Shown one piece after another: positions 8,047-25,772 of a DNA stretch of 64,000 nt (the stretch's first letter is position 1; each line of letters opens with the position of its first letter). This stretch comes from Paracoccus sediminicola (GTDB lineage: Bacteria; Pseudomonadota; Alphaproteobacteria; Rhodobacterales; Rhodobacteraceae). Under the pieces are notes generated by a model. The model was given only the letters and a program-made list of their open reading frames with translations. It was not told the origin of the DNA and made no database searches. Location: NCBI RefSeq assembly GCF_027912835.1, contig NZ_CP115768.1, forward strand, positions 1,178,001 to 1,242,000, given 5' to 3'. Made by a program: the position numbers and the translations under genes.

Positions 8047-9387
<1,341 letters not shown>

Positions 9388-9407
9388 GCGCGCGGTCCCT
9401 GATTGCC

Positions 9408-9435
9408 GAAAGGGCGCCCTGCGGGGCGCCCTTTC
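9408..9435 (+). terminator. Intrinsic terminator of the TRAP binding-protein gene
   Basis: Eleven-base perfect arms (GAAAGGGCGCC and GGCGCCCTTTC) with a 6-base loop lie 20 bases after the stop codon. Because the arms end in AAA/TTT it may work in both directions and also serve the convergent DinB-family gene. Confidence 0.75.
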
Positions 9436-9448
9436 TCGTTCCGGGCGA

Positions 9449-9964
9449 TCACATGCTGCTATAGGGCTCGGGCATGAAGGCGAGATCGGTCAGATCGTGC
9501 CGCGCCCCGGCGGCGGTCAGCATGGCGTGTATCTGGCCGCGGTGATGGGTCTGATGGTTGAAGAAATGCGTGACGAGCAGCCATTTCGGCTGCGAGCGAT
9601 GCGTGGCCGTGGCACCCGAATACCAATCGAGATCGCCCTCCAGCCACACCTCCGGCAACTCGCGCGCCCATTGCAGGATGCGCCGATCGAACGCGCGGCG
9701 GTTCTCGGTGAAGCGCGTCCAGTCTGCGATGAGATCGCCCGATTCGCTGATATCCTGTTCGGGCTTCGGTTCGTCGGCGAAGCGGCTGAACCACATTCGG
9801 TCACCCCACCAGAGATGCGAGAAGCTCCGCTCGATCGAACCGAAAAACGCACCTCGCTCACGCTGACGCTCCGCCGCGCTCAATCCGCTCGCCGCCCCGA
9901 GCATTCCGTCATTCTGCCAGAGATTATATCTCGCCATCTGGGTGACATAAGCCCTGTCGATCAT
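9449..9964 (-). CDS. DinB family protein
   Basis: The 171-residue product is a DinB-like four-helix bundle. The three metal-binding histidines typical of the family are visible: one in RSFSHLWWGD (about residue 50) and two in THFFNHQTHHRGQIHAM near residues 135-145. The start MARYNLWQN is also family-typical. Members include bacillithiol or mycothiol transferases and damage-induced proteins of unknown activity; the specific reaction cannot be read here. The ATG at 9964 follows GGAGAGG; a longer frame to 10054 lacks support. Confidence 0.85.
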   Translation of the reverse strand: MIDRAYVTQMARYNLWQNDGMLGAASGLSAAERQRERGAFFGSIERSFSHLWWGDRMWFSRFADEPKPEQDISESGDLIADWTRFTENRRAFDRRILQWARELPEVWLEGDLDWYSGATATHRSQPKWLLVTHFFNHQTHHRGQIHAMLTAAGARHDLTDLAFMPEPYSSM

Positions 9965-10130
9965 CGCGCCTCTCCGCCTGATCCGCTTCACGCCCATCTT
10001 AGACCGGCAAGCGCGTGTGAAACACCCGCCAATCCCGGCTTTCCCCCTTCCCATCCGCCCCGATCCCTGCTATGCGCCCGGCTTCGGCTTCACCCTTGGA
10101 GGAAGCCGCTCATGTTGAAAGGAAAATATC

Positions 10131-10811
10131 ATGGCCAAAGAGATCCCGGATCTGGTGGCCGAGGCACGCGCGGGGACAGGCAAGGGGGCCGCCCGCAAAG
10201 CTCGCCGCGAAGGCAAGGTGCCCGGCATCGTATATGGCGACGGCAAGGACCCGCTCGCCATTCAGTTCGACTTCAACCAGCTTCTGACCAAGCTGCGCGC
10301 CGGTCGTTTCATGTCCACGCTGTGGAACATGAAGGTCGAGGGCGAGGACGATGTCCGCGTCATCTGCCGCGCCGTCCAGAAGGATGTCGTGAAGGATCTG
10401 CCGACCCATATCGACTTCATGCGACTGCGCCGCACCTCGAAGGTGAACCTGTTCATTCAGGTCGAATTCATCAACGAGGAACTCGCGCCCGGCCTCAAGC
10501 GCGGCGGCACTCTGGTCACCGTGCGCCCGGAAGTCGAGCTGCGCGTGACCGCCGGCGACATCCCGGAAAGCATCGTTGTCGATCTGGAAGGCAAGGAAAT
10601 CGGCGATTCGATCCATATCGAGGACGTCAAACTGCCCTCGGGCGCAAAGCCGACCACGGACCGCAACTTCGTGATCGCCAATATCGCGGCGCCGTCGGCC
10701 CTTGTCTCCGAGGAATCGGAAGAGGATGCTGATGCCGCAGCCGCAGAGGGCGAAGGCGAGGCCACCGAGGCCGAAGGCGAAGAGACCGCCGAGGAAAACG
10801 CGGAAGAGTGA
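10131..10811 (+). CDS. rplY: 50S ribosomal protein L25 / general stress protein Ctc
   Basis: L25 of the long Ctc type binds 5S rRNA in the large ribosomal subunit. The 226-residue product has the N-terminal 5S-binding barrel (about residues 1-95, with [20 protein letters not shown] and the HIDFMRL strand) and the C-terminal TL5 domain (about 100-190, with [18 protein letters not shown] [20 protein letters not shown]). The last 30 residues are an acidic Glu/Ala tail, common in alphaproteobacterial versions. The ATG at 10131 follows AAAGGAAAATATC. A strong terminator follows the stop. Confidence 0.96.
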
Positions 10812-11756: not shown

Positions 11757-11770
11757 GTTCGGGCGCGGCC

Positions 11771-12736
11771 TCAGAAATCGACCTCGATGGCGACGCCTTG
11801 CTGCACCGCCAGATCGACCACCGCCGACGCGACGGCCAGATCCTGAAGCCCCACCCCGGTGCCGTCGAACAACGTGATCTGCTCGTCCGAGACGCGGCCC
11901 GGATTGCTGCCATTGATGACCGCGCCCAGTTGCGAGATATCCGTCTCGGAGATCAGACCCTGCGCCACGGCATGCTGCGCCTCGCCGAGCGTCACCGATT
12001 GCGCGACCTCATCGGTGAACACATCCGCACGAACCAGAAGCTGCGGATCGACCTCCTGCTTGCCCTTGGTGTCGGTGCCCATGCAGGCAATATGCGTGCC
12101 CGGCGAAACCTGATCCGCCTTGAGGATCGCATCGAAGGACGAGGTGATCGAGATAATCACATCGGCCTCGGTCATGCCGTCCAACTCGACCGCCTCGAAG
12201 GGGATGCCGGCCTCATCGGCGACCTCTTGCAGGTTCGACAGCATCTCGGGATGGAGGTTCCAGCCGATCGCCTTCTGGAAATCGCGCTGCTCAAGCGCTG
12301 CGCGCATCTGGAATTTCGCCTGATGCCCGGCCCCGATCATGCCAAGAACCTTTGCATCCTGCCGCGCCAGATGCCGGATCGACACCGAAGATGCCGCAGC
12401 CGTGCGCAGCGCCGTCAGCAGATTGCCGCCCACCATCGCCGCAGCCTTGCCGGTATCGGGATCGAACAGGAACACGGTCGACTGGTGGTTGATCAGCCCG
12501 CGCTTTTCCAGATTGTTCGGCCAATACCCGCCCGCCTTCAGCCCAAGCGTCAGCCCGGCGCGGTCGAAGCCGCCCTTGAAGCCGTAAAGCGCGTCCTCAT
12601 GCCCGATCGCCTCGCGGATGACGGGGAAGTTATAGGCATCCCCCGAAGCCATCGCGGCGAAGACCTTCTCGACCGCCTCGAAGGCCGCCTCGCGGGTCAT
12701 CAGATCGGCAATTTCGCGTTCGGGGACAATCAGCAT
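11771..12736 (-). CDS. bhcD: Iminosuccinate reductase of the beta-hydroxyaspartate cycle
   Basis: BhcD reduces iminosuccinate to L-aspartate with NADH, closing the beta-hydroxyaspartate cycle and regenerating the amino donor for BhcA. By sequence alone it is a member of the ornithine cyclodeaminase/mu-crystallin family (321 residues): substrate-binding region with GLKAGGYWPNN, Rossmann motif VLGMIGAGHQAKFQMRAAL at about 125-145, and SITSSFDAIL. The specific role is taken from its place as last gene of the bhcABCD operon. The ATG at 12736 has CGGAGC upstream; a TTG one codon earlier is unlikely. A 114-base gap with a strong hairpin separates it from bhcC, unlike the tight spacing of the other three genes. 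Confidence 0.92.
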   Translation of the reverse strand: MLIVPEREIADLMTREAAFEAVEKVFAAMASGDAYNFPVIREAIGHEDALYGFKGGFDRAGLTLGLKAGGYWPNNLEKRGLINHQSTVFLFDPDTGKAAAMVGGNLLTALRTAAASSVSIRHLARQDAKVLGMIGAGHQAKFQMRAALEQRDFQKAIGWNLHPEMLSNLQEVADEAGIPFEAVELDGMTEADVIISITSSFDAILKADQVSPGTHIACMGTDTKGKQEVDPQLLVRADVFTDEVAQSVTLGEAQHAVAQGLISETDISQLGAVINGSNPGRVSDEQITLFDGTGVGLQDLAVASAVVDLAVQQGVAIEVDF

Positions 12737-12808
12737 CAAAAAGCTCCGTATCAGTGTTCATGCGCCCCTGTGGAATGGCCGGATTGGCGGCCCGCACATG
12801 GGCAGAAA

Positions 12809-12829
12809 CCGGCGCCGCGCAGGCGCCGG
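12809..12829 (-). terminator. Intercistronic hairpin between bhcC and bhcD
   Basis: Eight-base perfect arms CCGGCGCC / GGCGCCGG with a 5-base loop lie in the only sizeable gap of the bhc operon; in the transcribed direction the hairpin is followed by TTTCT. It could be a partial terminator, a processing or stability element that sets bhcABC above bhcD, or simply a stable spacer. No promoter for bhcD alone is obvious. Confidence 0.55.
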
Positions 12830-12850
12830 AGTTTGTCGTTCAGCCGGGGA

Positions 12851-14014
12851 TCAGTAGGCCTTGCCGCGCGCCGATACCGGCCAGACGGATTCGACCTTGC
12901 CGCCGCGCACGCCCACATACCAGTCATGGACATTGGCGGTCGGGTCGCAATGGCCCGGCACAAGCTTCAGCTTCTCGCCCACTTTCAGAACCCCGTCCGG
13001 GTCCGCGATCACCCCGTGCTCATCCGAGCATTTCACATATTCCACATCGTCGCGGCCATAGATGAAGGGCAGCCCGCTATCGACCGACTGTGCCTTGAGC
13101 CCGGCATCGCAGATCGCCTTGTCCTCCTTGGCGTGGCTCATGACCTGGGTGAGGATGAAGAACGCGTTCTCCCATTCGCCCTGGTCGATCCGCTTGCCGT
13201 CCTTGTCGAGGATGCGGCCGTAATCGGCATCCATGAAAGCGTAAGAGCCGCATTGAAGCTCGTTGTAAACGCCCGAGTTGGATTCGAAGTAATAAGAGCC
13301 GGTGCCGCCGCCAGAGACCAGCTCGGGTTCAAGCCCGGCCTCCTTCAGCCCGTCCACCGCGTCCTTGACCATCGCAATCGCGGTGTCCAGCTTGGCCTTC
13401 CGGTCCTCATAGCTGTCGATATGCTGCATCGCGCCCTGATAGGCCTGGATGCCGGTGAATTTCAGACCCGGAGCGGCGTCGATGGCCTTGGCGATCTTGA
13501 CCACATCCTCGGTGGTGGTGACGCCGCAGCGCCCGGCGCCGCAGTCGATTTCCACGAAGCATTCCAGCGTGGTGCCGTGTTTCTGCGCGGCTTCGGACAG
13601 CGCCGAGACATTGTCGATGTCGTCCACGCAGACGATGATCCGGCTGCCCAGCTTGGGCAGCTGCGCGAGGCGGTCGATCTTCTTGGGATCGCGAACCTGA
13701 TTGCTGACCAGCACATCCTTGATGCCGCCGCGCACAAAGACTTCGGCCTCGCTGACCTTCTGGCAGCAGACCCCGACCGCGCCGCCCAGGCTTTCCTGAA
13801 GCTTCTGCACATCCACCGATTTATGCATCTTGCCGTGGCTGCGATGGCGCATCCCGTGCGCCTTGGCGTAATCGCCCATCTTCTTGATGTTGCGCTCGAG
13901 CGCGTCGAGATCCAGCACCAGGCAGGGCGTCTGGATATCCGCCTCGTCCATGCCCGGCTTGGCCGGAATGTCGAAGCCGACCTCGTAATCGTCGAATTTC
14001 GCGGGTGCGTTCAT
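12851..14014 (-). CDS. bhcC: beta-Hydroxyaspartate aldolase
   Basis: BhcC condenses glycine and glyoxylate to (2R,3S)-beta-hydroxyaspartate using PLP. The 387-residue product is a D-threonine aldolase-like fold-type III enzyme: the Schiff-base Lys is in RSHGKMHKS (K62), the glycine-rich phosphate site is in LVSGGGTGSYY, and the C-terminal metal site includes GHCDPTANVHDW, where family members bind a divalent metal. Annotation pipelines would call this a DSD1 or alanine racemase N-terminal domain protein; the operon context decides. It starts three bases after the bhcB stop. Confidence 0.94.
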   Translation of the reverse strand: MNAPAKFDDYEVGFDIPAKPGMDEADIQTPCLVLDLDALERNIKKMGDYAKAHGMRHRSHGKMHKSVDVQKLQESLGGAVGVCCQKVSEAEVFVRGGIKDVLVSNQVRDPKKIDRLAQLPKLGSRIIVCVDDIDNVSALSEAAQKHGTTLECFVEIDCGAGRCGVTTTEDVVKIAKAIDAAPGLKFTGIQAYQGAMQHIDSYEDRKAKLDTAIAMVKDAVDGLKEAGLEPELVSGGGTGSYYFESNSGVYNELQCGSYAFMDADYGRILDKDGKRIDQGEWENAFFILTQVMSHAKEDKAICDAGLKAQSVDSGLPFIYGRDDVEYVKCSDEHGVIADPDGVLKVGEKLKLVPGHCDPTANVHDWYVGVRGGKVESVWPVSARGKAY

Positions 14015-14017
14015 GAC

Positions 14018-14989
14018 TCAGTCTCCTTTCATCCAGGGCAGCCGGTCGAGATCGACATTGCCCCCGGTCACGATAATGCCGACGCGCTTTCCGGCGAAGG
14101 CATCCTTGTTCTTCAGAATGGTGGCGAGCGGCACGGCGCTCGACGGCTCCATCACGATGCGCAGATATTTCCAGATCAGCTTCATCGCATCGACGATTTC
14201 CTCTTCCGAGGCTGTGTAGATCTCCGAGACATGGTTCGACACGAAATGCCAGGTCAGATCCTTCAGCGGCACCAGCAGACCGTCCGCTACCGATTTCGGC
14301 GCATCATCGGCGATGATCTTGCCGGCCTTGAAGCTGCGATAGGCATCGTCGGCGGTTTCCGGCTCTGCCGCGATGACCTTCGTCTCAGGGGCGAGCGTGG
14401 CCAGCGTCAGGCAGGTGCCCGAGATCATTCCGCCGCCGCCGATCGGGGCCACGACCATATCCAGCCCGCCGGTCTGTTCCATCAGCTCCTTCGAGCAGGT
14501 CCCCTGCCCGGCGATCACGCGGGGGTCGTTATAGGGATGAACGAAATCGCCCCCGGTTTCGGCCTGAACCTTGGCAAATGCCTCTTCGCGGGACGAGGTC
14601 GAGGGCTCGCATTCGGTGATCTTGCCCCCGAAGCGTCGCACCGTGTCCTTCTTGGCCTGAGGCGCAGTGCGCGGCATCACCACGTTGCAGGGAATGCCCC
14701 GCAGCATGGCGGCGTAGGACAGGCACGAGGCGTGGTTGCCCGAGGAATGGGTCGCAACCCCCTTCTTCGCCTGTTCGTCACCCAGCCCGAACACCGCATT
14801 CGCGGCGCCGCGCACCTTGAACGCGCCGGGCTCCTGAAAATTCTCGCATTTGAAGAACAGATCGGCGCCGGTCAGCTCGTTCAGGTAATCCGACTGGCGC
14901 ACCGGGGTCAGGCGGATATGCGGGCGGATCAGCTCATGCGCCGCCAGCATATCCTCGTAGCTTGGGATCTTTACGGTCTCATCCAGCAT
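14018..14989 (-). CDS. bhcB: beta-Hydroxyaspartate dehydratase
   Basis: BhcB removes water from beta-hydroxyaspartate to give iminosuccinate, with PLP. The 323-residue product belongs to the serine/threonine dehydratase (fold-type II) family: PLP Lys in EPGAFKVRGAANAV (K58), SSGNHASCLSYAA in the substrate loop, and the phosphate-binding PIGGGGMISGTCL. It has no ACT domain, which argues against a biosynthetic threonine deaminase. The true start is the ATG at 14989, whose last base is the first base of the bhcA TGA (TGATG overlap). A much longer frame reaching 15625 on this strand is a shadow of bhcA. Confidence 0.94.
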   Translation of the reverse strand: MLDETVKIPSYEDMLAAHELIRPHIRLTPVRQSDYLNELTGADLFFKCENFQEPGAFKVRGAANAVFGLGDEQAKKGVATHSSGNHASCLSYAAMLRGIPCNVVMPRTAPQAKKDTVRRFGGKITECEPSTSSREEAFAKVQAETGGDFVHPYNDPRVIAGQGTCSKELMEQTGGLDMVVAPIGGGGMISGTCLTLATLAPETKVIAAEPETADDAYRSFKAGKIIADDAPKSVADGLLVPLKDLTWHFVSNHVSEIYTASEEEIVDAMKLIWKYLRIVMEPSSAVPLATILKNKDAFAGKRVGIIVTGGNVDLDRLPWMKGD

Positions 14990-16176
14990 CACGCGGCCTT
15001 TCGCATTTGAACAGGATTGCTGCGATAGTAATCCTGCGCGGCCGCGACGCCAGAGCCAAGTTTGATATCGAGGCCCAGATCGGCCATGCACATTTCGGCC
15101 GTGGCCAGCCCCGACAGCGTCATCACATCGGTGAGACTGCCCAGATGGCCGATGCGGAAGACCTTGCCGGCCACCTCGCCCAGCCCGACGCCGAAGGCCA
15201 CGCCATAGGCTTGCGCCGCATGGGTGACGATCTCGGTGGCGTTGAAGCCTTCCGGCGTGCGCACGGCGCTGACCGTGTCGGAATAGACATCGGGCGAGAC
15301 CGCGCAAAGCTCCAGCCCCCAGCCACGCACCGCGGCGCGGACGCCCTCGGCGATGCGGTGATGGCGGGCAAAGACATGCTCCAGCCCCTCGGCCAGCAAC
15401 ATCCCGCAGGCCTGGTTCAGCCCGTTCAGCAGCCCCACCGCGGGCGTATAGGGATACGCGTTGTTGGCATAGGCTTTTTCCATGTCGCGCACATCGAAGA
15501 AGGTGCGCGGCAGCGTCGCCGCCTCGGTCGCCGCCATCGCCTTTTCGCTGAACCCGATAATGGCCAGCCCCGGCGGCAGCATGAATCCTTTCTGCGAGCC
15601 GGTCACGGCGACATCGACGCCCCATTCGTCGAAGCGGAAATCCATCGAGGCGATCGAGGACACCCCGTCCACGAACAGCATCGCCGGATGCTCCGACGCA
15701 TCGAGCGCGCGGCGCACTGCGGCAATGTCGGATTTCACCCCGGTCGCGGTCTCGTTATGCGTTGCCAGCACGACCTTGATCTCGTGGTTCTTATCCGCGC
15801 TGAGGATCTCTTCATAGCGATCCGCAGGAAGCCCGGCGCCCCAGGGCGTTTCGACGATCTCGACCTCCAGCCCGTGACGCTGGCACATGTCGATCCAGCG
15901 ATGGCTGAACATGCCGTTGCGCGCCGCCAGAACCTTGTCGCCTGCCGAAAGCGTGTTGCTGAGCGCGGTTTCCCAGCCGCCAGTGCCGGTCGAGGGGAAG
16001 ATGAAGATCTCGGCACTGTCGCTTTTCAGGATCTTGCGCACGCTCTCGCGCGCCGGATGCAGGATCTGCCCGAAGAGCGGCGAGCGATGGTCGATCGTCG
16101 GCATATCGCAGGCCTTGCGCAGGCTTTCCGGGATATTCGTGGGACCGGGAATGAAAACCGGGTTCTGAAAACTCAT
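14989..16176 (-). CDS. bhcA: Aspartate-glyoxylate aminotransferase
   Basis: BhcA transfers the amino group of L-aspartate to glyoxylate, giving oxaloacetate (the cycle's product) and glycine. The 395-residue product is a class V PLP aminotransferase close to serine-glyoxylate aminotransferases: substrate loop FIPGPTNIPESLR, PSTGTGGWETALSN for cofactor binding, and the PLP lysine in VTGSQKGFMLPPG (K196). The operon with bhcBCD identifies it as BhcA and not as a serine-cycle enzyme. It is the first gene of the operon; GGAAGGAG lies before the ATG at 16176. Confidence 0.95.
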   Translation of the reverse strand: MSFQNPVFIPGPTNIPESLRKACDMPTIDHRSPLFGQILHPARESVRKILKSDSAEIFIFPSTGTGGWETALSNTLSAGDKVLAARNGMFSHRWIDMCQRHGLEVEIVETPWGAGLPADRYEEILSADKNHEIKVVLATHNETATGVKSDIAAVRRALDASEHPAMLFVDGVSSIASMDFRFDEWGVDVAVTGSQKGFMLPPGLAIIGFSEKAMAATEAATLPRTFFDVRDMEKAYANNAYPYTPAVGLLNGLNQACGMLLAEGLEHVFARHHRIAEGVRAAVRGWGLELCAVSPDVYSDTVSAVRTPEGFNATEIVTHAAQAYGVAFGVGLGEVAGKVFRIGHLGSLTDVMTLSGLATAEMCMADLGLDIKLGSGVAAAQDYYRSNPVQMRKAA

Positions 16177-16300
16177 GGGCTCGCTCCTTCCGTGATGCCC
16201 TCCAGCCTAGGCCACAGGCCGGGATCGATATATTTTTTTGGATTCGCATCACCCGACGGCAACTCAGCGTAAAAATTATTTATTGTCAGTGCCTTATATT

Positions 16301-16337
16301 TTTCATATCATGAATAGTGTTTTCACTTAAAATGAAA
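16301..16337. promoter_or_regulatory. AT-rich bhcA-bhcR control region with two TTTCA/TGAA(A/T) inverted repeats
   Basis: The 169 bases between the divergent genes are much richer in A and T than the surroundings (16230-16345). Two inverted repeats use the same half-sites: TTTCA-5-TGAAT at 16301-16315 (containing TTCAT-ATC-ATGAA) and TTTCA-7-TGAAA at 16321-16337. The left half-sites are exactly 20 bases apart, about two helical turns. The second overlaps the bhcR ribosome binding site. They are good candidates for BhcR binding and autoregulation; glyoxylate is the known effector of BhcR in Paracoccus denitrificans. Confidence 0.5.
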
Positions 16338-16345
16338 GAGTTTTG

Positions 16346-17194
16346 ATGGAATCTCAAGACAATGATGGGGACCCCCCGCGCCGACCTCGTGGCCGGCCTC
16401 GCGGATGGGAGGATAAGAGCGATCAGAACATCATCAAATCGCTCGACCGCGCGATGGAGGTGTTCGAGTTTCTCAGCGCCGCGCAGGGGCTGACCCTTGG
16501 CAGCATCGCCGAAGATATGGGCCAGTCCCCGGCGACGGTCTATCGCATTCTCGTGACGCTGGAACGGCGCGGCCTGGTGGAATTCGATGCCGAAGCGCAG
16601 CTTTGGCATATCGGACCCCGCGCCTTCGTCATCGGCGCCCGCTATCTGCGCCGCACCAGCCTTGTCGAGCGCGCCCGGCCGATCCTGCGGCAATTGATGG
16701 AAGACACCGGCGAAACCGCCAATCTCGGTGTCGAAACCGACGGCGCGGTGCTGTTCGTGAGCCAGGTCGAGACCCATGCCAGCATCCGGGCCTTTTTCCC
16801 GCCCGGCACGCTCTCGCCGATGCATGCCTCCGGGATCGGCAAGGCGCTGCTTGCCGGCATGGCAGAACCCCGCGCCGCGCGCATCATCGCCGCGCAGGGG
16901 CTCGAAGCCTTTACCGAACACAGCCTTATAACGCCCGAACGTCTGGCGCGCGACCTGTCGCTCAGCCGGGCGCGCGGTTACGCCGTGGATAACGAGGAAA
17001 AGACGCTCGGAATGCGCTGCATTGCCGCGCCGGTTTTCGACATGCATGGCGAGGCCGCGGCGGGGATCTCGGTCTCGGGGCCGACGAGCCGGATCGGACC
17101 GGACCAGATCGAGCCGCTCAGCCGTCCGGTGATCGCGGCGGCCCGCGCGCTGACCGCGGCGATTGGCGGCGTCGTCACACCCCGATCCGGCTGA
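16346..17194 (+). CDS. bhcR: IclR family regulator of the beta-hydroxyaspartate cycle
   Basis: The 282-residue regulator has a basic N-terminal arm (PRRPRGRPRGW, AT-hook-like), an IclR winged helix-turn-helix at about residues 28-90 (SLDRAMEVFEFL, GLTLGSIAEDMGQSPATVYRIL in two pieces) and a C-terminal effector domain (about 105-275) with HASGIGKALLAG and RGYAVDNEE, typical of the family. Divergent placement from bhcA identifies it as BhcR. The ATG at 16346 is chosen; a TTG one codon earlier is possible. A four-codon frame (16332-16346) ends in a TGA that overlaps this ATG. Its end overlaps the end of the convergent LysR gene by 20 bases. Confidence 0.93.
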   Translation: MESQDNDGDPPRRPRGRPRGWEDKSDQNIIKSLDRAMEVFEFLSAAQGLTLGSIAEDMGQSPATVYRILVTLERRGLVEFDAEAQLWHIGPRAFVIGARYLRRTSLVERARPILRQLMEDTGETANLGVETDGAVLFVSQVETHASIRAFFPPGTLSPMHASGIGKALLAGMAEPRAARIIAAQGLEAFTEHSLITPERLARDLSLSRARGYAVDNEEKTLGMRCIAAPVFDMHGEAAAGISVSGPTSRIGPDQIEPLSRPVIAAARALTAAIGGVVTPRSG

Positions 17195-18128
17195 CCCGCG
17201 GCCCTGCCGAGCCAGGGTCTGCCCCGTCCTGCCTCATGGCCTTGACCGCTCGCCCGGCCACGAAATCGACCAGAAGACGCATCTTCGGATCCTGCAATCG
17301 CCGATGCGGGTAAAGACAGCCAAAGATCGAGGCGACGGGCGGCGTCTCCGGCAGGATCTCGACCAGCCGACCCGCAGCCAGATGCCCCGCCACATCAAAG
17401 CGCGGCTTGTTCACGATCCCGGCACCGGCAAGCGCCCAGCCGGTCAGCACATCGCTGTCATCGGCATCGAACCGGCCCCGCACCTCCAGCTTGCGCGGAC
17501 CTTCGGGCGTGTCGAGCACCCAGAAATATTCCGGTGAACGCGGATAGCGCAGCAGCAGGCAGTTATGGCGGCTCATCAGGTCATCGGGGGTCTGCGGCGT
17601 GCCATGCTGCGCCAGATAGGACGGCGCGGCGCAAAGAACGCGCGGGCAATCGGCGAATTTGCGCAGCTTCAGGCTCGAATCGGGCGGCGTGCCCACGAAA
17701 AACGCCAGGTCGATCCCGTCGGCAAGAATATCCACCTTGCGATCCGACATCCTCATACGGATCTCGGTCTCCGCGTGGCGCTCGGCGAATTCCGGGATCA
17801 GCGGCGCGATGATCCGCCGGCCAAGACCCAGCGGCGCGGTCACCCGGATCACCCCGCGCGGCACGCCCGAGAACTGCGCCGCGACGGATTCGGCATGTTC
17901 CACCGCCGCCAGCACCCGGCGGGCCTCGTCATAGAAGCTCTTGCCCAGTTCGGTCGGGGTCAGCGATCGGGTGGTGCGGTTGAACAGCCGCGCGCCTAGA
18001 TGCTGTTCCAGCTCCTTGATGCGCTTGCTGGCAACGGCAGGGGTCAGCCGCAGGTCGCGCCCGCCCGAGGTAATGCTGCCGAGTTCGACCACGCGGACAA
18101 AGACCCGCAGGCTTTCGAGATAGGACAT
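17175..18128 (-). CDS. LysR family transcriptional regulator
   Basis: The 317-residue product has the LysR winged helix-turn-helix at residues 1-60 (MSYLESLRVFVRVVELGSI, then LTPAVASKRIKELEQHLGARLFNRTTR in two parts) and a periplasmic-binding-like effector domain from about residue 90. The branch resembles the CrgA/DsdC-like group with the RGVIRVTAPLGLGRRIIAPLIPEF pattern (shortened: RGVIRVTAPLGLG). ATG at 18128 has AGAAGGAA upstream. It is divergent from xdhA across 162 bases that contain a perfect palindrome, so it probably regulates itself and may control the purine operon. The effector is unknown. Confidence 0.9.
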   Translation of the reverse strand: MSYLESLRVFVRVVELGSITSGGRDLRLTPAVASKRIKELEQHLGARLFNRTTRSLTPTELGKSFYDEARRVLAAVEHAESVAAQFSGVPRGVIRVTAPLGLGRRIIAPLIPEFAERHAETEIRMRMSDRKVDILADGIDLAFFVGTPPDSSLKLRKFADCPRVLCAAPSYLAQHGTPQTPDDLMSRHNCLLLRYPRSPEYFWVLDTPEGPRKLEVRGRFDADDSDVLTGWALAGAGIVNKPRFDVAGHLAAGRLVEILPETPPVASIFGCLYPHRRLQDPKMRLLVDFVAGRAVKAMRQDGADPGSAGPRVSRIGV

Positions 18129-18164
18129 GAGCGGCGTTCCTTCTGGGATCGGACCCACTCTATG

Positions 18165-18187
18165 ACTTTCAACAGTCTGTTGAAAGT
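18165..18187. promoter_or_regulatory. Perfect 10-bp-arm palindrome in the lysR-xdhA intergenic region
   Basis: Arms ACTTTCAACA and TGTTGAAAGT flank a GTC centre, with no mismatch over 23 bases. It lies 37 bases upstream of the LysR ATG and 104 bases upstream of xdhA. Such a long perfect palindrome in a divergent region next to a LysR gene is a strong candidate operator, probably of the adjacent regulator. An RNA hairpin role is less likely because it has no T-tract. Confidence 0.65.
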
Positions 18188-18290
18188 ATTTCCCGACACA
18201 CACCGTTTTTCGAGTCAGTCACCTTGGCTAGGCTTGTGTTAGATTTGATATTCAACGCCAGCACCGCCCGAGCCAGCACAGGATCGAGAC

Positions 18291-19754
18291 ATGCCGCATT
18301 CCTCCGATATCCGTTTTCTGCTCAATGACGAGGAGATCACGCTCTCTGAACTGCCCGCGACCCGGACCCTGCTGGACTATCTTCGCATCGAGCGCCGGCT
18401 GACCGGCACCAAGGAGGGCTGCGCCGAGGGAGATTGCGGGGCCTGCACGGTGCTGATCGGGCGGTTGCAGAACGGCGCGCTGCGCTATGAGACGGTGAAT
18501 GCCTGCATCCGCTTCCTCGCCTCGCTGAACGGCTGCCACATCGTCACCGTCGAACATCTCTGCGGGCCCGACGGCCGCCTGCATCCGGTCCAGCAAGCCA
18601 TGGTCGAGCATCATGGCAGCCAGTGCGGCTTCTGCACGCCGGGTTTCGTCATGTCGCTTTATGCATTGTGGATGGAGACACCGCAGCCCAGCGAAACGCA
18701 GATCGAGACCGCGCTTCAGGGCAATCTCTGCCGCTGCACCGGCTATGCGCCGATCATCCGGGCGGCGCTCGCCGTAAATGAATACGACACCCCCGCGAAT
18801 GACTATCTCACCCGCGAGCGCGAGACGCTGACAGCCCGACTGGACGCCATGCGCCAGAACGGGCGGATCGAAACCGGACCCGAGGATGACCGCGCGATCC
18901 TGCCGGCGGATCTGGACGATCTGGGCAAGGTTCTGGGCGCGCATCCCAAGGCAACCATCGTCGCCGGCTCGACCGATGTCGGGCTGTGGGTGACGAAATT
19001 CCTGCGCCCGATCTCTCCGGTCGTGTTCATCACTCATCTGGAAGAGCTGAAATCGGTCGAGCTCACCGACGAGGCGCTGACCATCGGCGCGGGCGTCACC
19101 TATAGCGAGGCCGAGGCGGCGATGCGCGAGGCGTTCCCGCATCTCGGACCCTATTGGGAGCGCATCGCCGGCTGGCAGGTCCGCAACATGGGCACGATCG
19201 GCGGCAATATCGCCAATGGCTCGCCCATCGGGGACACGCCGCCGGTGCTGATCGCGCTCGGCGCGGAGGTCACGCTGCAAAAGGCCGAGGGGCGCCGCAG
19301 CCTGGCGCTGGAGGATTTCTTCATAGATTACGGCGAGCAGGATCGCGAGAGCGGCGATTTCGTCGCCAGCATTCGCATCCCGCGCCCGGCACCGGGGCAG
19401 ATCGACGCGGCCTACAAGATCTCGAAGCGGCGCGACGAGGATATTTCCTCGGTCGCCGCCGGGTTCAGCCTCACCGTGCAGCAGGGGCGCATTTCTGCCG
19501 CGCGGCTGGCCTTTGGCGGCATGGCGGCCACACCGAAACGCGCCGCCGCAGCCGAGGCCGCGCTTGTCGGACAGGAGTGGAACGAAGCCGCCTTCGAGGC
19601 GGCGGCAGAGGCACTTTCGCAGGATTTCGAGCCGCTCTCCGACTGGCGCGCCAGCGCCGAATACCGGATGCTGGTCGCGCAGAACCTGCTGCGCCGCTTC
19701 TTTCTGGAACATGACGCCGACACCTCCGGCAAGCCCCGGCTGGAGGTCGCCTGA
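18291..19754 (+). CDS. xdhA: Xanthine dehydrogenase, small subunit (Fe-S and FAD)
   Basis: XdhA passes electrons from the molybdenum subunit through two [2Fe-2S] clusters to FAD and NAD+. The 487-residue product has the plant-type cluster motif KEGCAEGDCGACTV at about residues 40-53, the second cluster motifs CGFCTPGF (about 113) and LCRCTGYAP (about 148), and an FAD domain from about 200 with GTIGGNIANGSPIGD. The C-terminal CO-dehydrogenase flavoprotein domain ends at about 470. It overlaps the ATG of xdhB as TGATG. Confidence 0.96.
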   Translation: MPHSSDIRFLLNDEEITLSELPATRTLLDYLRIERRLTGTKEGCAEGDCGACTVLIGRLQNGALRYETVNACIRFLASLNGCHIVTVEHLCGPDGRLHPVQQAMVEHHGSQCGFCTPGFVMSLYALWMETPQPSETQIETALQGNLCRCTGYAPIIRAALAVNEYDTPANDYLTRERETLTARLDAMRQNGRIETGPEDDRAILPADLDDLGKVLGAHPKATIVAGSTDVGLWVTKFLRPISPVVFITHLEELKSVELTDEALTIGAGVTYSEAEAAMREAFPHLGPYWERIAGWQVRNMGTIGGNIANGSPIGDTPPVLIALGAEVTLQKAEGRRSLALEDFFIDYGEQDRESGDFVASIRIPRPAPGQIDAAYKISKRRDEDISSVAAGFSLTVQQGRISAARLAFGGMAATPKRAAAAEAALVGQEWNEAAFEAAAEALSQDFEPLSDWRASAEYRMLVAQNLLRRFFLEHDADTSGKPRLEVA

Positions 19755-22099
19755 TGGAAGATCATCGCATGAATGAACAGCGCCGCGCGCGAGGCACCGC
19801 GCATCAGAGCATCGAACATGACAGCGCCATCAAGCATGTCACCGGGCGGGCTGAATATACCGATGACATCACCGAACCGCAGGGCACGCTTCACGCCTAT
19901 CTCGGCGTGGCGGATGTGGCGCATGGTCGGATCACGGCGATGGATCTGAGTGCGGTGCGCAAGGCACAGGGCGTCATCGCCGTGCTGACCGCCGCCGATA
20001 TTCCCGGCGTCAACGATATCAGCCCCGGCGGGCGGCAGGACGAGCCGGTCTTCCCCGAAGAGCTGGTCGAATATCATGGCCAGCCGCTTTTCGCGGTGGT
20101 CGCCGAAACCCGCGATCTCGCCCGGCGCGCCGCCGAGAAGGCCGAGATCGGATACGACCCCCTGCCCCATGCGCTCGACCCGATCAGCGCGCGCGAGGCC
20201 GGTTACCCGACCGTGACCGAACCGCTGACCCTGCAACGCGGCGATATCGGCGCGGGACGGCAGGGCGCGGCGCATCGCATCAAGGGCCGCATCGCCGTGG
20301 GCGGTCAGGATCACATGTATCTGGAAGGGCAGATCGCCTTCGCCATTCCCGGCGAGGATGAGGATGTGATCGTGAATTGCTCGACCCAGCATCCCAGCGA
20401 GGCGCAGCATATGGTCGCCCATGTGCTCGGCGTGCCGTCGCATTCGGTCACCATCAATGTCCGCCGCATGGGTGGCGGGTTCGGCGGCAAGGAAAGCCAG
20501 ATGAACATCTTCGCGGTCGTCGCCGCGATGGCCGCCAAAAAGCTGAACCGTCCGGTGAAGATCCGCCCCGACCGCGATCAGGACATGACCGCGACCGGCA
20601 AGCGCCATGATTTCGTGATCGACTATGACGTGGCCTTCGACGATGACGGCGTGATCCAGGCCGTCGAAAGCCATCTGGCAGCGCGCTGCGGATATTCCTC
20701 GGATCTCTCGGGGCCGGTGACCGACCGGGCGCTGTTCCATGCCGACAACGCCTATTTCTATCCGCATGTGCGGCTGACCTCCTGCCCGCAAAAGACCAAC
20801 ACCGTTTCGAACACGGCGTTTCGCGGCTTTGGCGGGCCGCAGGGCGTCATGGTCGCCGAACGCATGATCGAGGAAATCGCCTATGCGCTCGGCCGGGACA
20901 CGCTGGAGATCCGCAAGGCCAATTTCTATGGCGGCGAGGGGCGCGACCTGACGCCCTATCACCAGAAGGTCGAGGACAATATCCTCGGCCAGATCGTCCG
21001 GGAGCTGGAGGAAAGCAGCGATTACCAGGCCCGCCGCGACGCGGTGCTGCGCCACAATGCCGAGGGCGGGATCATCCGGCGCGGGATCGCCATGACCCCG
21101 GTGAAATTCGGCATCTCTTTTACGGCGACGCATTTCAACCAGGCCGGATCGCTGCTGCATATCTACAGCGACGGCTCGATCTCCCTCAATCACGGCGGGA
21201 CCGAGATGGGCCAGGGGCTGAACACCAAGGTCGCGCAGGTCGTGGCGGATGTGTTCCAGGTGGATTTCGACCGGATCAAGATCACCCGCACCACCACCGA
21301 GAAAGTGCCGAACACCTCGGCCACTGCGGCATCGAGCGGCTCGGATCTGAATGGCATGGCGGCGCTCGATGCGGCCGAGCAGATCAAGGCGCGACTCGTC
21401 GCCTTCGCCGCCGAACGCTGGCAGATCGCGCCGGATCGGATCCGATTCATCGACAATGCCGTTCATATCGGCGACGAGATCCTGCCCTTCGCCAAGCTCA
21501 TCCACGAGGCTTATGTCGCACGGATCCACCTGTCCGCCGCGGGCTTCTATAAGACGCCGAAAATCCATTGGGACCGCGCCGCGGGCAAGGGCCGGCCCTT
21601 CTATTACTACGCCTATGGCGCGGCCTGTTCCGAGGTGTCCGTCGATACGCTGACCGGCGAGTACCGGATCGAACGCAGCGATATCCTGCATGATGTGGGC
21701 CGCTCGCTGAACCCGGCCATCGACAAGGGGCAGGTCGAGGGTGCCTTCGTGCAGGGTGTCGGCTGGCTGACCAGCGAAGAGCTGTGGTGGGACGACAAGG
21801 GCCGGCTGAGGACCCATGCGCCCTCTACCTACAAGATCCCGCTGGCCAGCGACCGGCCGCGTATCTTCAACGTCGCCCTCGCCGACTGGTCGGAGAATCG
21901 CGAGATGACGATCAAGCGGTCGAAAGCCGTGGGCGAGCCGCCCTTCATGCTGGGGATCTCGGTCTTCGAGGCGATCTCGATGGCGGTGGCGAGCGTGGCG
22001 GATTATCGCGAATGCCCGCGCCTCGATTCGCCTGCCACGCCCGAACGGGTGCTGTTGGCGGTGGATCGGCTGAAACGCCGGACCGGCGGAAGGAGCTGA
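19754..22099 (+). CDS. xdhB: Xanthine dehydrogenase, molybdopterin-binding large subunit
   Basis: XdhB holds the molybdenum cofactor and hydroxylates hypoxanthine and xanthine to urate in the cytosol. The 781-residue product has an N-terminal aldehyde oxidase a/b hammerhead (about 25-135) and the large Moco domain with RRMGGGFGGKESQ, FRGFGGPQG, GGTEMGQGLNTKV, and a C-terminal AVGEPPFMLG whose Glu is the catalytic base in this family. An Arg in the FRGFGGPQG region is the substrate Arg position of xanthine dehydrogenases and supports a purine substrate. It overlaps xdhA by one base, and xdhC follows three bases after its stop. Confidence 0.96.
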   Translation: MEDHRMNEQRRARGTAHQSIEHDSAIKHVTGRAEYTDDITEPQGTLHAYLGVADVAHGRITAMDLSAVRKAQGVIAVLTAADIPGVNDISPGGRQDEPVFPEELVEYHGQPLFAVVAETRDLARRAAEKAEIGYDPLPHALDPISAREAGYPTVTEPLTLQRGDIGAGRQGAAHRIKGRIAVGGQDHMYLEGQIAFAIPGEDEDVIVNCSTQHPSEAQHMVAHVLGVPSHSVTINVRRMGGGFGGKESQMNIFAVVAAMAAKKLNRPVKIRPDRDQDMTATGKRHDFVIDYDVAFDDDGVIQAVESHLAARCGYSSDLSGPVTDRALFHADNAYFYPHVRLTSCPQKTNTVSNTAFRGFGGPQGVMVAERMIEEIAYALGRDTLEIRKANFYGGEGRDLTPYHQKVEDNILGQIVRELEESSDYQARRDAVLRHNAEGGIIRRGIAMTPVKFGISFTATHFNQAGSLLHIYSDGSISLNHGGTEMGQGLNTKVAQVVADVFQVDFDRIKITRTTTEKVPNTSATAASSGSDLNGMAALDAAEQIKARLVAFAAERWQIAPDRIRFIDNAVHIGDEILPFAKLIHEAYVARIHLSAAGFYKTPKIHWDRAAGKGRPFYYYAYGAACSEVSVDTLTGEYRIERSDILHDVGRSLNPAIDKGQVEGAFVQGVGWLTSEELWWDDKGRLRTHAPSTYKIPLASDRPRIFNVALADWSENREMTIKRSKAVGEPPFMLGISVFEAISMAVASVADYRECPRLDSPATPERVLLAVDRLKRRTGGRS

Positions 22100-22102
22100 G
22101 CG

Positions 22103-22954
22103 ATGTATGCGCTGAACCGCCTCATCAGCTTTCTGAACGAAGCCGGCCCTGTCGCCCGGCTGCGGCTGACCCGTGTGCGCGGCTCGTCCCCGCGCGAAGC
22201 TGGGACCGAGATGTTCGTCAGCGCGACCGGGCTGTCGGGCACGATCGGCGGCGGACAGCTGGAACAGCGCGCCATCGACGCCGCCCGTGAAATGCTGGCG
22301 AAAGGCGACATCGCCTGCCATCTGGACCTGCCGCTCGGACCCGAGATCGGGCAATGCTGCGGCGGCCGCGTCGAGATTTCCGTGCAGCGGATGCGCATGG
22401 CGGACAAGGCCGCCGCCATCTCGGCCGCGCGACGCGCCCATGACAGCCTGCCCTCGGTCTATGTGCTCGGGGCGGGCCATGTCGGGCGGGCGCTGGCCGA
22501 TCTGCTTCAGCATCTGCCGGTGCGCACGGTGCTGGCCGATCAGCGTCAGGGCGAGCTGGCCCTGTCGGGCGCGATGGTCGAAAAGCGGCTCTGCGCGATC
22601 CCGGAATTCGAGATCCAGTCCGCGCCGCCGGGCAGCGCCTTCGTGGTGCTGACCCATGACCATGCGCTGGATTTCCTGCTGACCGCCGCGGCGCTCGAAC
22701 GCGGCGATGCGCGCTATGTCGGCATGATCGGATCGGCCACCAAGCGGGCAAAGTTCCGAAGCTGGTGCGCACGGCAATGCGACGGGCTGTCGGACGCCGC
22801 GCTGACCTGCCCGATCGGCTCGGGCGGCAGTCGCGACAAGCGCCCCGAGATCATCGCCGCCATGGTCGCGGCAGAGCTGATGACCGCGCTGACCCCGGCC
22901 GCGCAGCACATGCAGCCGGATCGCGCGAGGGAGATCCGGCTGGCAACGCGATAG
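22103..22954 (+). CDS. xdhC: Xanthine dehydrogenase accessory protein XdhC
   Basis: XdhC binds the molybdenum cofactor and inserts its sulfurated form into XdhB. The 283-residue product shows the XdhC/CoxI N-terminal domain (RVRGSSPREAGTEMFV), the conserved GQCCGGRVEI motif at about residues 82-91, and a C-terminal Rossmann domain with VYVLGAGHVGRALADLL at about 118-134 and YVGMIGSATKRAKF. Genes for this protein regularly follow xdhB. An AGGAGCTGAGCG ribosome binding site overlaps the xdhB stop codon. Confidence 0.95.
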   Translation: MYALNRLISFLNEAGPVARLRLTRVRGSSPREAGTEMFVSATGLSGTIGGGQLEQRAIDAAREMLAKGDIACHLDLPLGPEIGQCCGGRVEISVQRMRMADKAAAISAARRAHDSLPSVYVLGAGHVGRALADLLQHLPVRTVLADQRQGELALSGAMVEKRLCAIPEFEIQSAPPGSAFVVLTHDHALDFLLTAAALERGDARYVGMIGSATKRAKFRSWCARQCDGLSDAALTCPIGSGGSRDKRPEIIAAMVAAELMTALTPAAQHMQPDRAREIRLATR

Positions 22955-23036
22955 CGGGGCGGCGCCGGGCCGCACCAACCGACACATGACAACAAGGGCC
23001 CGGCAGGAGACCGGCCCGCCATCCATGGGAGGGACA

Positions 23037-24338
23037 ATGATGGACAGGATTTTCGGCCTCAGGGCCAATGGCACCAGCCTGAGGACAGAGGTGATCGCGG
23101 GGGCGACCACCTTCCTGACCATGGCCTATATCATCTTCGTCAACCCGGAGATCCTGTCGTCGACCGGGATGGACCGCGATGCGGTCTTCGTCGCCACCTG
23201 CCTCGCCGCCGCGCTCGGCTCGGCGATCATGGCGCTGTGGGCGAACTGGCCCATCGGCATGGCGCCGGGGATGGGGCTGAACGCCTTTTTCGCCTTTACC
23301 GTGGTCGGCGCGCTCGGTTTTACCTGGCAACAGGCGCTGGGTGCGGTGTTCATCTCGGGTCTGGTCTTTCTGTTCCTGTCGGTCACCGGCATCCGGCGCT
23401 GGCTGATCGCCGGGATCCCCAGCTCGATGCGCAGCGCGATTGCGGCGGGGATCGGGATGTTTCTCGGGCTGATCGCGCTGACCAGCTCGGGCATCGTGGT
23501 GGCGAATCCCGCAACCTATGTCGCGCTCGGGGATCTGACCCAGACCGGCCCGCTTCTGGCCGTGGCCGGGTTCTTCATCACCGCAGCGCTCGACGCGCTG
23601 AAAATCCGCGGCGCGATCCTGATCGGGATCCTGGTCATCACGCTGGCCTCGATCCTGCTCGGGGCGAGCGCGTTCGGTGGCCTCATGTCGATGCCGCCCT
23701 CGATCGCGCCGACCTTCATGCAGCTCGACCTGGCCGGGGCGCTGACGGCGGGGATCTTCCACGTTATCCTGGTGATGGTGCTGGTCGAGGTGTTCGACGC
23801 GACCGGCACGCTGATCGGCGTCGCCAAGCGCGCCGGGCTGCTGACCGAGGGGCCGGCCCATACCAACAAGGGCCTCAGCCGCGCGCTGATGGCGGATTCG
23901 ACCGCGATCCTCGCCGGCTCGATGCTGGGCACCAGCTCGACCACCGCCTATGTCGAAAGCGCTTCGGGCGTTCAGGCGGGCGGGCGGACGGGGCTGACCG
24001 CGCTCGTCGTCGCCGTGCTGTTCCTGCTGGCGATGTTCTTCGCGCCGTTGGCGGGTTCGGTCCCGGCCTATGCGACCGCGCCCGCGCTGCTCTACGTGGC
24101 CTGCCTGATGGTGCGTGAATTTTCGGAAATCGCATGGGAGGATGTGACCGAGGCGGCGCCGGCCGTGCTGACCGCGCTGATGATGCCTTTTACCTATTCC
24201 ATCGCCAACGGTCTGGCCTTCGGCTTTATCAGCTATGCGCTGATCAAGCTGCTGACCGGACGCGCGCGCGACGTCCATATCGCGACCTGGGTGGTGGCGG
24301 GTCTGTTCGTGATCCGCTTCGCCTTCTTCGCCGAATGA
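23037..24338 (+). CDS. NCS2 family purine permease (guanine/hypoxanthine type)
   Basis: This 433-residue inner-membrane protein has 12-14 predicted membrane segments and the AzgA/GhxP/AdeQ-type signatures: TEVIAGATTFLTMAYIIFVNP in two parts (TEVIAGATTFLTM, YIIFVNPEIL), GMGLNAFFAFTVV, and a second-half motif VEVFDATGTLIGVA followed by LGTSSTTAYVESASGV. It imports purine bases with protons. Position between xdhC and guaD supports guanine or hypoxanthine as substrate. The ATG at 23037 follows GGGAGGGACA; the frame opens 17 codons earlier without a site. Confidence 0.93.
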   Translation: MMDRIFGLRANGTSLRTEVIAGATTFLTMAYIIFVNPEILSSTGMDRDAVFVATCLAAALGSAIMALWANWPIGMAPGMGLNAFFAFTVVGALGFTWQQALGAVFISGLVFLFLSVTGIRRWLIAGIPSSMRSAIAAGIGMFLGLIALTSSGIVVANPATYVALGDLTQTGPLLAVAGFFITAALDALKIRGAILIGILVITLASILLGASAFGGLMSMPPSIAPTFMQLDLAGALTAGIFHVILVMVLVEVFDATGTLIGVAKRAGLLTEGPAHTNKGLSRALMADSTAILAGSMLGTSSTTAYVESASGVQAGGRTGLTALVVAVLFLLAMFFAPLAGSVPAYATAPALLYVACLMVREFSEIAWEDVTEAAPAVLTALMMPFTYSIANGLAFGFISYALIKLLTGRARDVHIATWVVAGLFVIRFAFFAE

Positions 24339-24440
24339 CCGCAAGCTGAGACAAGAACCCCCTGTCTGGGGCACTGGTGCGGATCACCGGACCCTCCGCG
24401 TGATCCGCATATTTTCTGACCAGAGAACCGGGACCAGAGC

Positions 24441-25748
24441 ATGACCGACACAGCCCCGCCCCGCCTTTTGCGCGGACGCATCCTGAACTTCTCCGCCCTG
24501 CCCCGCGACGACACGGATCGCGCGGCCTATCGCTATATCGAGGATGGCGCGATCCTGATCTCGGGCGGAATGATCGAGGCTGTGGGCGACTATGCCGAGA
24601 TCGCGCCACGCGCCGGCGCGGCGCAGATCGTCAATCACCATCCGCATCTGATGATGGCCGGTTTCATCGATACGCATCTGCATTTCCCGCAGGTGCAGGT
24701 GATCGCAAGCTGGGGGGCGCAGCTTCTCGACTGGCTGAACAATTACACTTTTCCCGAGGAAACCCGCTTCGTCGATCCCGATCATTGCGCCGAGATGGCC
24801 CGGCATTTCTTCGATCTGCTCACCAGCCACGGCACGACCACCGCGGTCGCCTTCTGCTCGGTGCACAGATCATCCGCCGAGGCATATTTCACCGAGGCCG
24901 CCCGCCGGAACATGCGGATGATCGGCGGCAAGGTGATGATGGACCGCAACGCCCCCGACGGGCTGCGCGACACGGCGCAATCGGGCTATGACGACAGCAA
25001 GGAACTGATCGAGAAATGGCACGGCAAAGGGCGCGGGCTTTATGCGATCTCGCCGCGTTTCGCGATCACCTCGACACCCGAGCAGCTCGAGATGGCCGGC
25101 GCGCTCGCCGCGGAATATCCCGACTGCCATATCCAGACCCATCTGAGCGAAAATCACGACGAAATCGCCTATACCGCGTCGCTTTATCCCGATGCGCCGG
25201 ATTATCTGGGCATCTATGAACGCTTCGGGCTGATCGGGCCGAAGGCGCTGATGGGGCATTCGATTCACCTGACCGAGCGAGAGATCGCGGTCATGGCCGA
25301 GACCGGCACCAAGGCGGTGTTCTGCCCGACCTCTAATCTTTTCCTGGGCAGCGGGCTGTTCGACGATGCCGGGCTGCGCGCGCGGGGCATCACCAACGCC
25401 ATCGCCACGGATATCGGCGGCGGCAGCAGCTATTCCATGCTTCAGACGCTGGATCAGGGCTACAAGATCCTCCAGCTTCAGGGTCAGAAGCTGCATCCTT
25501 TGGGCGCGTTCCACTGGGTCACGCGGGGCAATGCCGTGGCGCTGGGGCTGGAGGACCGGATCGGCACGCTCGATGCCGGGACCGAGGCGGATATCGTGGT
25601 GCTGGACGCACGCGCCACCCCCGCGATGGAACTGCGCATGGCGCGGGCCAAAACGCTGTCGGAAGAGCTGTTCATCCTGCAAACGCTCGGTGACGATCGT
25701 GCCATCGCGGAAACCTATATCGCCGGGGCGCCGGTCAAGAAGGGTTAG
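24441..25748 (+). CDS. guaD: Guanine deaminase
   Basis: GuaD hydrolyses guanine to xanthine and ammonia with a zinc ion, in the cytosol. The 435-residue amidohydrolase has the metal motif FIDTHLHFPQ (about residues 73-82), the guanine-deaminase-specific WGAQLLDWLNNYTFPEE (WGAQLLDWLNNYTF shown), QTHLSENHDE, HSIHL and the late Asp in ATDIGGGSSYSMLQT. The family length is normal. It ends the plus-strand run xdhABC-permease-guaD, giving a complete guanine to urate route. Confidence 0.95.
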   Translation: MTDTAPPRLLRGRILNFSALPRDDTDRAAYRYIEDGAILISGGMIEAVGDYAEIAPRAGAAQIVNHHPHLMMAGFIDTHLHFPQVQVIASWGAQLLDWLNNYTFPEETRFVDPDHCAEMARHFFDLLTSHGTTTAVAFCSVHRSSAEAYFTEAARRNMRMIGGKVMMDRNAPDGLRDTAQSGYDDSKELIEKWHGKGRGLYAISPRFAITSTPEQLEMAGALAAEYPDCHIQTHLSENHDEIAYTASLYPDAPDYLGIYERFGLIGPKALMGHSIHLTEREIAVMAETGTKAVFCPTSNLFLGSGLFDDAGLRARGITNAIATDIGGGSSYSMLQTLDQGYKILQLQGQKLHPLGAFHWVTRGNAVALGLEDRIGTLDAGTEADIVVLDARATPAMELRMARAKTLSEELFILQTLGDDRAIAETYIAGAPVKKG

Positions 25749-25772
25749 CGCGGCGCAGGCGGCGCAGATGCC

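Follow-up and report, generated by a model that had tools for sequence, protein, structure and literature searches.

How would Paracoccus sediminicola assimilate glyoxylate, and which substrates would supply it? The question is raised by the genes bhcABCD and the divergent regulator gene bhcR, which lie in a 64,000-nucleotide stretch of its chromosome (contig NZ_CP115768.1, positions 1,178,001 to 1,242,000; hereafter the window, in whose numbering positions are given) and were read in an earlier note as a complete operon for the beta-hydroxyaspartate cycle (BHAC). We favour, at a probability of about 0.88, a functional BHAC operon that most likely receives glyoxylate from purines and from glycolate. 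The locus comprises the following genes:

11771-12736, minus strand: bhcD, iminosuccinate reductase (321 aa; NF045643, 592.6 bits against a cut-off of 500; best solved structure 6rqa)
12851-14014, minus strand: bhcC, 3-hydroxy-D-aspartate aldolase (387 aa; NF045642, 776.2 bits against a cut-off of 690; best solved structure 6qkb; K62)
14018-14989, minus strand: bhcB, beta-hydroxyaspartate dehydratase (323 aa; NF045641, 570.8 bits against a cut-off of 550; K58, GGGG motif)
14989-16176, minus strand: bhcA, L-aspartate--glyoxylate aminotransferase (395 aa; NF045640, 754.8 bits against a cut-off of 650; K196 in an SQK motif)
16346-17194, plus strand: bhcR, divergent IclR-type regulator (282 aa; NF045644, 400.3 bits against a cut-off of 350)

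All five genes were recovered where the earlier note had placed them, in the order bhcA-bhcB-bhcC-bhcD with the IclR-type gene divergent, and without internal stops. Their naming as Bhc proteins is borne out by the curated NCBIfam equivalog models, each of which is exceeded by its protein (the queries for BhcB, BhcD, and BhcR carried one or two additional N-terminal residues). The motifs are intact, as had been claimed: lysines in motifs of the pyridoxal phosphate type are present in BhcA (K196), BhcB (K58), and BhcC (K62), and GMIGAGHQ, a motif of the nucleotide-binding type, starts at residue 132 of BhcD; we take these to be the residues that bind the cofactors, as in their families. The genes bhcA and bhcB share one nucleotide (TGATG), 3 nt separate bhcB from bhcC, and 114 nt separate bhcC from bhcD. 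Judging from start codon and spacing, ATG at 12736 is a likelier start for bhcD than TTG at 12739, and ATG at 16346 is likelier for bhcR than TTG at 16343.

The four enzymes could have roles unrelated to the cycle, as an ordinary serine-glyoxylate aminotransferase, threonine dehydratase, D-threonine aldolase, and ornithine cyclodeaminase, given that they belong to the same superfamilies and that generic models also match them, at lower scores. In the same NCBIfam scan, however, the generic models listed for aminotransferases, dehydratases, racemases, dehydrogenases, and IclR-type regulators fall under their own curated cut-offs (for BhcB, among the 25 of 38 families listed), whereas the Bhc models lie over theirs; the relatives below cut-off include pyridoxamine-pyruvate transaminase, threonine dehydratases, alanine dehydrogenase, cyclodeaminases, IclR, and AllR. 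Among solved structures, BhcC is closest to 6qkb, "D-3-hydroxyaspartate aldolase" (721 bits; runner-up 337), and BhcD to 6rqa, "iminosuccinate reductase" (470 bits; runner-up 153), both of which we take to be P. denitrificans proteins. Structures bearing a Bhc name are absent from the matches listed for BhcA (best 6pk1, serine-glyoxylate aminotransferase) and from the 60 of 118 matches listed for BhcB (best 6lut, probable serine racemase), which limits this comparison to BhcC and BhcD.

Conservation of the operon also argues against ordinary enzymes. The BhcC model matches 193 of 295 genomes of the same family (E ≤ 0.001), 126 of them over the cut-off, including that of P. sediminicola, in which it has a single match genome-wide. 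To sample loci irrespective of their likeness to the window, we used stretches of up to 20 kb from 105 of the 125 further genomes that exceed the cut-off. The remaining 20, in which bhcC lies less than 8 kb from the contig start, were left out, and some of the 105 stretches are shorter because the opposite end of the contig is near (10.8 kb at the least). The A-B-C-D order is kept in 98 of these 105 same-family loci, which indicates that the arrangement is not due to chance, and bhcR is matched in 95; unrelated roles for the four enzymes are thus very improbable. The closest BhcC proteins among named records are 90% identical to that of the window (Tropicimonas marinistellae and a few others). 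Judged by its sequence, the operon is an intact further member of an already known pathway. The BHAC locus of P. denitrificans (bhcA Pden_3921, bhcR Pden_3922; PMC11323563) shares with the window the same five protein families, the divergent regulator, and the conserved regulator pocket; the window has xdhABC, a permease gene, and guaD on the bhcR side, the comparison with P. denitrificans covering the bhc genes.

By analogy with P. denitrificans, BhcA would aminate glyoxylate to glycine, which BhcC would condense with a second glyoxylate to 3-hydroxyaspartate; BhcB would dehydrate this to iminosuccinate, and BhcD would reduce the latter to aspartate, to be reused by BhcA. The net outcome would be conversion of two glyoxylate to oxaloacetate with no loss of CO2. 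BhcR, an activator in P. denitrificans, would sense glyoxylate and activate the operon through the intergenic region between bhcR and bhcA:

16177-16345, no strand: bhcR-bhcA intergenic region, with candidate BhcR sites TGAAA-N5-TTTCA (one mismatch) at 16311-16325 and TTTCA-N7-TGAAA

The window BhcR was aligned to E. coli IclR and compared by eye with the residue table of PMC11323563. All five oxygen-binding positions (Gly160, Ile161, Asp212, Ser239, and Ser241 in IclR numbering) are as in P. denitrificans BhcR; the patch reads Ser/Ala/Ser/Met against Thr/Ala/Ser/Met (three of four identical, with Ser for Thr at 143), and neither BhcR protein has the IclR patch that accommodates the pyruvate methyl group. 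Across 96 intergenic regions (95 relatives plus the window, with ends taken from the alignment and hence approximate), TGAAA-N5-TTTCA occurs exactly in 52, against a mean of 3.0 and a maximum of 8 in 20 dinucleotide shuffles, and with at most one mismatch in 79 (shuffles: mean 6.7, maximum 10). The one-mismatch repeat at 16311-16325 is one of two matches in the 64 kb (expected 0.34; at least two in 5 of 100 shuffles), and we regard it as a candidate BhcR site. The effector domain of the window BhcR aligns with those of IclR and AllR. This system and the E. coli allantoin regulon (AllR, gcl) are alike in placing an IclR-family, glyoxylate-sensing regulator over glyoxylate use, but they differ in pathway, and AllR is a repressor whereas P. 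denitrificans BhcR is an activator (PMC11323563).

The 114-nt spacer between bhcC and bhcD (12737-12850) has a perfect 8-bp inverted repeat (CCGGCGCC/GGCGCCGG). A terminator or attenuator at this position was considered and rejected, as 52 of 200 shuffled versions of the spacer fold equally well (z = -0.60). In four loci of relatives (L046, at 9325-10770, L083, L171, and L206), a gene for an NCS1-type permease lies within the operon, between bhcC and bhcD; the nearest models to this permease are those of allantoin permease, below cut-off.

Glyoxylate, on which the BHAC acts, is the end product of purine degradation, and genes for purine use adjoin the operon on the bhcR side. The earlier note made no mention of these neighbours, nor of the glycolate oxidase genes 12.7 kb away.

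17175-18128, minus strand: LysR-type regulator, adjoining bhcR and xdhA (PF03466 and PF00126; homologues beside xdhA or puuD in relatives)
18291-19754, plus strand: xdhA, xanthine dehydrogenase small subunit (TIGR02963, 680.5 bits against a cut-off of 467)
19754-22099, plus strand: xdhB, xanthine dehydrogenase molybdopterin subunit (TIGR02965, 1311.5 bits against a cut-off of 849.5)
22103-22954, plus strand: xdhC, xanthine dehydrogenase accessory protein (TIGR02964, 266.8 bits against a cut-off of 161.6)
22986-24338, plus strand: nucleobase permease, xanthine/uracil family (PF00860, 180.3 bits against a cut-off of 27; no NCBIfam match at E 1e-10)
24441-25748, plus strand: guaD, guanine deaminase, last gene of the block (TIGR02967, 559.1 bits against a cut-off of 375.4)

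Judging from this neighbourhood, purines are most likely one supply of glyoxylate, with guaD and xdhABC acting beside bhc, and with puuD and a hiuH-puuE-allE-allA cluster contributing from elsewhere on the chromosome. The same proximity could arise if bhc and purine genes travelled together, through permissive sites or shared horizontally transferred segments, without metabolic coupling. The genes bhcDCBA-bhcR-lysR-xdhABC-permease-guaD form a single block of about 14 kb (11757-25772) between hisI and gluQRS, two genes that adjoin each other in a genome of the same genus (G023) with no BhcC match. A tree of 12 XdhA proteins places the window protein with those of Tritonibacter, Aliiroseovarius, and others, and the G023 protein with Paracoccus, on opposite sides of a branch with 100% support; the xdhB and guaD trees have no starred group containing the window, so that only the xdhA tree bears on transfer. 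Because the comparison set consists almost wholly of bhc-linked loci, this grouping is suggestive, short of proof, of acquisition of the block as a unit; the alternative is loss in G023. In G023, the xdh-guaD genes sit beside allA, hiuH, and puuD, and in the window the trmFO-gluQRS-hisI segment is inverted with respect to rplY. Among the 20 largest direct repeat families and the 25 longest inverted pairs, only weak similarities flank the block, with no convincing element ends, and its G+C content is not unusual (0.625-0.685 per 2-kb step, against 0.601-0.695 around it).

Metabolic coupling is better matched by the way in which purine and ureide genes recur around bhc. By tblastn (allE, allA, puuE, hiuH, puuD, xdhA/B/C, guaD, and 8-oxoguanine deaminase), 44 of the 105 same-family loci have at least one such gene no more than 9.4 kb from bhcC, against one or two expected by chance (20 kb being about 0.5% of a 4-Mb genome); the individual counts are allE 36, allA 34, puuE 32, hiuH 32, puuD 28, guaD 5, xdhB 3, and xdhC 3. 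Within 8 kb of bhcC, the figure is 48 of 80 named loci, a set chosen by similarity to the window BhcC. When reading frames around these 80 loci were clustered, and the recurrent neighbours identified via NCBIfam or Pfam from one representative each, ureide genes were the commonest besides bhc. Arrangements vary among the 106 loci that include the window: allE upstream and others downstream (22), downstream only (12), allE upstream only (7), all upstream (2), xdh/guaD upstream only (2, one being the window), and none (61). Passive co-travel does not readily account for ureide genes that flank bhc on one side, the other, or both, in differing orders, for a permease inside the operon in four loci, or for the fact that the cycle's substrate is the established end product of purine degradation, and we consider it improbable.

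The survey also turned up loci that depart from the usual pattern. Three of them (L221, L222, and L209) have a BhcC over the cut-off without matches to bhcA, bhcB, or bhcD within 9.4 kb, and in L221 and L222 the lone bhcC (about 9400-10560) stands in a ureide cluster, adjoining allE; the aldolase may have another role there, or its partners may lie elsewhere. On a contig titled Spirulina subsalsa (L093), bhcB and bhcC are 88% and 85% identical to those of the window, for which assembly contamination is likelier than transfer to a cyanobacterium. Chelativorans multitrophicus DSM 9103 (L099), a degrader of ethylenediaminetetraacetic acid (EDTA), has bhcBCD; EDTA breakdown is another source of glyoxylate.

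The P. sediminicola genome also encodes later steps of purine degradation. A ureide cluster near 2.97 Mb (L238) contains allE, a xanthine permease gene, malate synthase G, lysR, hiuH, puuE, and allA, and a PuuD-type urate oxidase is encoded at 0.67 Mb. AllA is a ureidoglycolate lyase and hiuH encodes HIU hydrolase, PuuE carries an OHCU decarboxylase domain, and AllE also passes the model for a bifunctional allantoicase/ureidoglycine aminohydrolase. The presence of malate synthase G in this cluster suggests that glyoxylate from purines has a further outlet. In a search for glyoxylate carboligase, no candidate in this genome (best 338.4 bits against 711.2; all eight scored) or in G023 (all scored) exceeded the cut-off, which leaves the glycerate pathway (Gcl) of P. 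sediminicola without its carboligase; none of the 295 family genomes has a canonical carboligase at E 1e-150 (up to four candidates were scored in each, and the E. coli control was positive). For isocitrate lyase, one 552-aa frame has three partial matches that exceed the Pfam cut-off (best 71.5 bits), others lie in shorter proteins, and the genome may encode a divergent form; G023 gave no match. From these ureide and urate genes, glcDEF, and the lack of a carboligase over cut-off, we infer that P. sediminicola can probably make glyoxylate from purines and glycolate, with the BHAC and malate synthase as visible outlets. Of these two, only the BHAC provides net assimilation from glyoxylate alone (PMC11323563, and established biochemistry), a view that is fitted by a related bacterium with glycolate oxidase and without the aldolase, which uses glycolate for energy only (PMC7574528). 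Purines are named as a source of glyoxylate in PMC11323563.

The glycolate supply would be provided by glycolate oxidase genes outside the block but in the same window, reached after guaD through gluQRS, trmFO, and a small heat-shock gene:

28866-30155, minus strand: glcF, glycolate oxidase (430.8 bits against a cut-off of 333)
30152-31156, minus strand: glcE, glycolate oxidase (213.7 bits against a cut-off of 284)
31179-32561, minus strand: glcD, glycolate oxidase (499.5 bits against 897, and 434.7 against 567.9)

The best matches of GlcE and GlcD are to glycolate oxidase models, with scores below the curated cut-offs. Beyond glcD, at 35095-36045, lies a cytochrome P450-like frame with matches that are far below cut-offs and start mid-profile; it may be a truncated gene or have a misplaced start.

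Several observations weigh against the purine part of our reading. The glcDEF genes lie 12.7 kb from bhcA, in the window itself. The ureide genes hiuH, puuE, allA, and allE, with malate synthase G, are separated from bhc by about 1.78 Mb of contig, and puuD is apart from both. In 61 of the 105 same-family loci, there is no purine or ureide gene within 9.4 kb, some of these stretches being cut by contig ends. On a rapidly computed BhcC tree, in which 18 of the 103 inner branches are starred, the linked/unlinked label requires 31 changes against a shuffled mean of 34.3, and as few in 68 of 500 shuffles; being hardly more clustered than when shuffled, the bhc-purine linkage appears to come and go. 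Even if only starred branches are considered, the unlinked state must have changed at least 11 times, a kind of count that does not distinguish gain from loss. By a hand tally, AllA is encoded in 119 of the 126 genomes with BhcC over cut-off and in 154 of the 169 others, and thus does not track the cycle. The presence or absence of ureidoglycolate lyase was rejected as evidence on coupling, as the enzyme is nearly universal (273 of 295 family genomes) and hence uninformative. The position of glcDEF, together with the published tie of the BHAC to glycolate oxidase, with GlcR and BhcR acting in series (PMC11323563), would suit an operon that serves glycolate only, as in P. denitrificans, with incidental purine neighbours. 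Nevertheless, glcDEF was found near bhcC in none of the 105 same-family loci (within 9.4 kb) and none of the 80 named loci (within 8 kb), against 44 and 48 with purine or ureide genes in several different arrangements; exclusive use for glycolate is an alternative that we take seriously but consider unlikely.

A glyoxylate-assimilation module tied to purine or allantoin breakdown has a counterpart in the allantoin-inducible gcl cluster of Pseudomonas aeruginosa (PA1498-PA1502; PMC12694930), which differs in using glyoxylate carboligase and tartronate semialdehyde reductase to reach pyruvate, whereas the window has the BHAC and no carboligase over cut-off. In searches of an open-access library, we found no description of bhc clustering with purine or ureide genes; most subscription papers lay outside that scope, and we make no claim of absence from print.

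In favouring a functional BHAC fed by both purines and glycolate, we regard the purine connection as a strong pattern in gene position, and as a good hypothesis. We lean slightly toward a broader proposal, that in many lineages of the family the BHAC is a dedicated end module of purine degradation: bhcRABCD would be wired into urate/allantoin clusters as a carboligase-free outlet for glyoxylate and would move with purine genes as a cassette, of which the 14-kb block may be an example, and its spread would perhaps be owed in part to purine carbon and nitrogen and not to algal glycolate alone. The operon itself adds one more genome to those with a known, ecologically important, carbon-conserving route of glyoxylate assimilation; the less expected part is the placement of bhc within purine/ureide clusters, here and in many relatives. 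Its recurrence, together with the lack of a canonical carboligase in the family sample, leads to a testable idea: that purines from nucleic acids, besides algal glycolate, may feed the cycle.

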